This document shows positions 1-1,070 of a DNA stretch of 39,079 nt, piece after piece; within the stretch, counting starts at the first letter, position 1, and every line of letters starts with the position of its first letter. Both the position numbers and the translations under genes were made by a program. The notes beneath the pieces were generated by a model. It was not told where the DNA came from. It worked only from the letters and a program-made list of their open reading frames with translations, and searched no databases. This stretch comes from Verrucomicrobiaceae bacterium. Its GTDB lineage: Bacteria > Verrucomicrobiota > Verrucomicrobiia > Verrucomicrobiales > Akkermansiaceae. The stretch covers positions 1-39,079 of the forward strand of contig JAACFN010000001.1 of the NCBI GenBank assembly GCA_009937455.1, read 5' to 3'.

Positions 1-371
1 ACCACAGCATTAGCCGCTGCATAATGCTGGGCGTGCGTTAAGCTGATCTTAATCTGGCTCAGCTTATTCTCCTTACAGAAGATCTCACCACCACCGGAGA
101 GAAACACTTCTGGCTCACCACTTTCTCGCCGTCTGACTTCCATATCCAGCCAAGAGAGCTCTTTTCCAATTCCCGTGCCTAAAGCTTTGGCTACCGCCTC
201 CTTAGCCGCAAACCTCGCCGCATAGTGAATGGCAGGTCGCTTCTGGCTCTCGCAGTATGCACGTTCCGCCTCGGTAAATACGCGACTGACAAAGCGCTCT
301 CCAAATTCCGCGATGGATGATTCCACACGCTCAACCTCGACGACATCAATACCTATCCCGAAAATCATCAT
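1..371 (-). CDS. acpS: holo-[acyl-carrier-protein] synthase, 3' end outside window
   Basis: Reverse-strand reading from ATG at 371: MMIFGIGIDVVEVERVESSIAEFGERFVSRVFTEAERAYCES..AARFAAKEAVAKALGTGIG; typical AcpS GIGIDVVEVER and RFAAKEA motifs. Start overlaps pdxJ stop (ATGA). Confidence 0.93.
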   Translation of the reverse strand, partial: MMIFGIGIDVVEVERVESSIAEFGERFVSRVFTEAERAYCESQKRPAIHYAARFAAKEAVAKALGTGIGKELSWLDMEVRRRESGEPEVFLSGGGEIFCKENKLSQIKISLTHAQHYAAANAV

Positions 372-1070
372 AATGTATAACCTTTCATCGCAGCACGCAT
401 CTCCTTGACCGCCTCAGTTAAGCCAACCCTCATCGAACGAGCAATTAATGTATGGCCAATGTTTAATTCCGCTAGATGTGGCACCGTCAATAGCTCAGGC
501 AGGTTTTCCAGATTGATGCCATGACCGGCATTCACTTGGAGTTTCATCTTGTGACCGAGCATCGCAGCGGTCTTGAGCCTCTCAGTCTCCTTACTGCGAT
601 CATGACTGGCTGCATTAGCAAAACAACCCGTGTGAAGTTCGATCATCTCAGCACCAATACGTGATGATGCTTCTACTTGGCTGAAGCTTCGAGACGGTAC
701 CCTCAAGTGACTCATAGAGCCCGGTAACGTCCAAGCCCCCCTCGGTTGTAACCTCCTCACGAGTTTCAGGAACAAGGCACACAAAGTCGGGTTTCAGCCG
801 CAATACCATATCCAGCATCTCGGGTGTGTTGCCCATCTCAAAATTAAGCGGCAGCTTGATCTGGTCTCTAATCTCAAAAGCATCTTGCTCCTGCATGTGA
901 CGCCGGTCACCACGCACATGAACCGTAATGGAGTCTGCACCCCCCTCTTGGGCATCCTTCGCCGCTTCTAGCGGACTCGGCTCGGCATTCGGAGAATCCA
1001 GCATTCCTGAGTAGCGTGCCTGGCGCAAGGTGGCTACATGATCAATATTGACTCCCAACAGCAAACTCAT
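368..1070 (-). pseudogene. pdxJ: pyridoxine 5'-phosphate synthase, split into two frames (frameshift/internal deletion near 680-700)
   Basis: ORF 648..1088 gives the N-terminal half (LLLGVNIDHVATLRQAR..VHVRGDRRHMQ..CLVPETREEVTTEGGLDVTG); ORF 368..784 gives the C-terminal half (VEASSRIGAEMIELHTGCFANA..VNAGHGINLENL..ELNIGHTLIARS). The expected segment '..AGIxVSLFIDxD..' between them is missing. Confidence 0.85.

Follow-up and report, generated by a model that had tools for sequence, protein, structure and literature searches.

The assembled sequence shows a broken pdxJ gene near one end of the window (the whole 39,079-nucleotide stretch of DNA that was analysed), but in the organism the gene is almost certainly unbroken. 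The pattern of recurrent losses in the same draft genome indicates that the break is almost certainly an artefact of assembly, and we hold with considerable confidence that the organism carries an intact, functional pdxJ. In the mechanism that we propose, about 44 nucleotides (nt) would have been dropped where pieces of sequence were joined near the end of a contig. Loss of vitamin B6 synthesis should not be read from the broken gene, and a false claim of auxotrophy is thereby avoided.

Both pieces of the window gene are recognizable by profile as PdxJ (pyridoxine 5'-phosphate synthase; PF03740, TIGR00559), of the DXP-dependent B6 pathway, and they adjoin acpS as in the congener G004, the closest relative with a pdxJ gene (85% DNA identity over pdxJ). 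Unlike known PdxJ, however, the gene as assembled lacks about 15 residues and changes frame (Table 1). Compared with G004, 44 nt are absent from pdxJ (window 368-1070, minus strand) at window position ~679/680, and in a pairwise alignment this single clean block accounts for the entire difference in aligned length, 685 nt in the window versus 729 nt in G004; there is no second lesion within the gene. The frame is lost because 44 is 2 modulo 3, and the PF03740 match is divided between two minus-strand frames, at window 678-1058 and 386-682. As assembled, neither piece reaches the curated NCBIfam cut-offs, and no uninterrupted frame matches the whole profile. The missing protein segment corresponds to G004 residues ~126-139 and includes LAGIKVSMFIDPDAS (G004 sequence); the conserved VS(L/M)FIDP segment, present in nearly all intact relatives with minor variation, is absent from the window PdxJ.

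Table 1. Features of the broken pdxJ region in the window, and clean losses found elsewhere in the same assembly (G000)
Feature	Location	Strand	Evidence or remark
acpS (holo-ACP synthase)	window 3..371	-	TIGR00516 above cut-off; start codon placed right at the pdxJ stop; truncated by contig end, continued on C139
C-terminal part of pdxJ, other frame, with stop codon	window 368..682	-	PF03740 profile 135-234, E 4.7e-31; 88.5% protein identity to G004 PdxJ 140-243
Junction with 44 nt missing relative to congener, frame change	window 679..681	-	pairwise alignments with G004
N-terminal part of pdxJ (residues 1 to ~125)	window 681..1070	-	PF03740 profile 2-121, E 4.4e-43; 96.8% protein identity to G004 PdxJ 1-125
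OmpA-family lipoprotein	G000:C1 (L132) ~1159		clean loss within 42-47 nt; start and signal-peptide region removed
UvrD-family helicase	G000:C11 (L142) ~2592		clean loss within 42-47 nt; conserved gene broken
glnD	G000:C27 (L218) ~5589		clean loss within 42-47 nt; conserved gene broken
pheS	G000:C44 (L235) ~6816		clean loss within 42-47 nt; conserved gene broken

These observations agree with the first-pass annotation of this DNA, which had described a pdxJ split by an internal deletion and frameshift, with the loss of 13-15 residues and of about 40 nt, not a multiple of 3. It had the C-terminal frame resume at 'SFSQVEASS'; homology to PdxJ does run from (S)QVEASS, but the 'SF' comes from translating upstream DNA out of frame. 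An AAGCTT(C) direct repeat proposed at the junction could not be upheld, since the flanking repeat, judged from G004, does not exceed about 3 nt (AGC). As a separate observation on the protein, an insertion of 7 residues follows the LRQAR motif in PdxJ of this group (window ~985-1030, minus strand) when it is compared with 5dlc, the solved PdxJ structure that matches it best.

Comparison with relatives, which the first-pass annotation had recommended, is informative: pdxJ lies in one uninterrupted frame in all 34 related genomes where the gene was found. Two sister genomes, G001 and G009, lack pdxJ, and they lack acpS too, so their absence was put down to bin incompleteness rather than gene loss. 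Relative to G004, the dN/dS of the window gene is 0.03 in the N-terminal part and 0.12 in the C-terminal part (dS ~0.4), its distance to outgroups is about that of the intact G004 gene, and it retains all 132 columns that are invariant in ten intact pdxJ genes. On this comparative evidence, strong purifying selection is apparent in both halves, and the relaxation that would mark a pseudogene is not seen. Taken together, the dN/dS values, the outgroup distances and the retained columns imply that the lesion is either very recent or not real. The partner genes pdxA (C218) and that for a PdxH-type oxidase (C223) are present with open frames. A search for another route to B6, also recommended at the outset, yielded one pdxJ in the genome, the split one, and no PdxS in the genus, and a second pdxJ or an alternative PdxST route was rejected on these results. 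In this genome (G000:C218:5640-6359) and its congeners, PdxA seems to have a divergent N terminus: nearly every genome of the genus has a frame of ~300 aa whose match to the 286-position family profile begins only at position 40-49.

How often do such losses occur elsewhere in this assembly? The window genome (G000) is a draft in 244 contigs, 84% complete. We sampled 60 further contigs of it together with 60 contigs of G004 and aligned the overlapping parts, which amounted to 28 pieces totalling 118 kb. On the G000 side only, this revealed four additional clean losses (42, 43, 46 and 47 nt), which bring the total, pdxJ included, to five clean losses of 42-47 nt in 157 kb of assembly. On the G004 side there was no comparable frame-breaking loss; its few similar-sized gaps all keep the frame, fall in repeats or belong to a stretch of poor alignment. 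In glnD, matches stop at residue 586 and restart at 603, and congeners whose sequence includes the lesion site read through it without a break in both glnD and the UvrD-family helicase gene. The recurrence that an assembly artefact should produce, the same lesion elsewhere and also in indispensable genes, was thus observed. At this rate, roughly 60 such losses would be extrapolated across 2 Mb, so that an isolated broken gene in this draft should not be given a biological meaning. A further gap relative to G004, of about 57 nt, lies at G000:C1 (L132) ~1240, roughly 80 nt away from the lipoprotein lesion.

The deciding case is pheS, which encodes the alpha subunit of phenylalanyl-tRNA synthetase. 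In G000 the gene is split between two frames, one with residues 1-68 and the other with 84-345; about 15 residues are missing and the frame shifts, while the flanks each have ~98.5-99% protein identity to G004. The gene is uninterrupted in 12 congeners, G004 among them, and it is single-copy in G000, where the sole other family match is marginal (E 7.9e-4, a 440-aa frame). Because pheS is indispensable and no cell survives without phenylalanyl-tRNA synthetase, the living cell cannot carry this break. The lesions in glnD and the helicase gene take the same form. Like the pheS loss, that in pdxJ is one-sided, breaks the frame and falls in the same size class, so that it most likely has the same cause. 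An assembly error had been named from the start as the alternative to a biological deletion, and these near-identical losses in other conserved genes, including a single-copy essential one, come down in its favor.

The step at which the bases were dropped is probably the joining or gap closing of contig pieces, a step that we infer because none of the five joins is more than 2.6 kb from a contig end, even in the contigs of 23.9 kb and 39 kb; the pdxJ join itself sits ~680 nt from the end. This pattern was noticed post hoc, and its fit to a faulty join or gap closure is only suggestive. Runs of N were considered as a cause and rejected: none marks the joins, and the Ns in the sampled G000 contigs total 2,770, the size of one sampled contig. 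Recurrent, one-sided, frame-breaking losses in conserved or indispensable genes of one bin resemble the small-indel errors of metagenome-assembled genomes, but the narrow 42-47 nt size range seen here is unusual, and a limited literature search, aimed partly at assembly errors, found no published report of such a signature.

Judged from the window alone, the pdxJ lesion looks specific. A single G004 contig can be aligned with the 39-kb window over the window's full length (90.5%), and only the 44-nt gap, among 47 gaps, clearly breaks a gene's frame; the rest lie between genes, keep the frame, compensate for each other or sit at frame edges. This otherwise clean window is a counterpoint to the artefact reading. 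Together with the cleanness of the loss, and the general knowledge that bacteria commonly undergo small deletions at short repeats, it speaks for a real and very recent 44-nt deletion in the pdxJ of the sampled strain, the lesions elsewhere being artefacts or unrelated; a real deletion could, indeed, coincide with artefacts in other contigs. Were this true, the strain would depend on vitamin B6 from its surroundings, by way of uptake and a PdxH-type oxidase. We regard it as unlikely, given the size class, one-sidedness and frame breaking shared with the lesion in indispensable pheS, the unrelaxed selection on pdxJ, and a pdxA that is kept open. Nor did the suggestion of a deletion between short direct repeats as the biological cause gain support: the junction has no strong direct repeat, both halves of the gene look fully constrained, and the partner genes are open. 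The last two points also count against the consequence drawn for that case, namely, that B6 synthesis is broken. It is very unlikely, because of the fixed break in pheS, that an active process in the lineage has produced the ~44-nt losses as real deletions, leaving the sampled cells as recent mutants in several genes including pdxJ.

If the lineage had instead lost B6 synthesis long ago and pdxJ were decaying as an old pseudogene, the two frames and the somewhat higher dN/dS of the C-terminal part would be accounted for. The selection pattern already contradicts this: every invariant column is kept, the outgroup distance is about that of the intact congener, pdxJ carries no further lesions, and pdxA and the PdxH-type oxidase gene are open, so that we give the idea almost no credence. 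A functional PdxJ made from the two reading frames, split or recoded, is likewise exceedingly improbable. Both frames are long enough for translation, but the DNA for ~15 residues including VS(L/M)FIDP is absent and cannot be made good by recoding or by assembling the fragments. Upstream, where the C-terminal frame is extended, the sequence does not resemble PdxJ. An artefact of assembly in an intact pdxJ remains our preferred explanation.

The acpS reading frame downstream is intact, as had been stated. Window 1-94 overlaps contig C139:1-94 exactly, on the opposite strand, and acpS spans the break between the two contigs. A second copy of the region was rejected, as this 94-nt overlap was the only match. 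The contig of the congener G004 also ends inside acpS, at nearly the same point.
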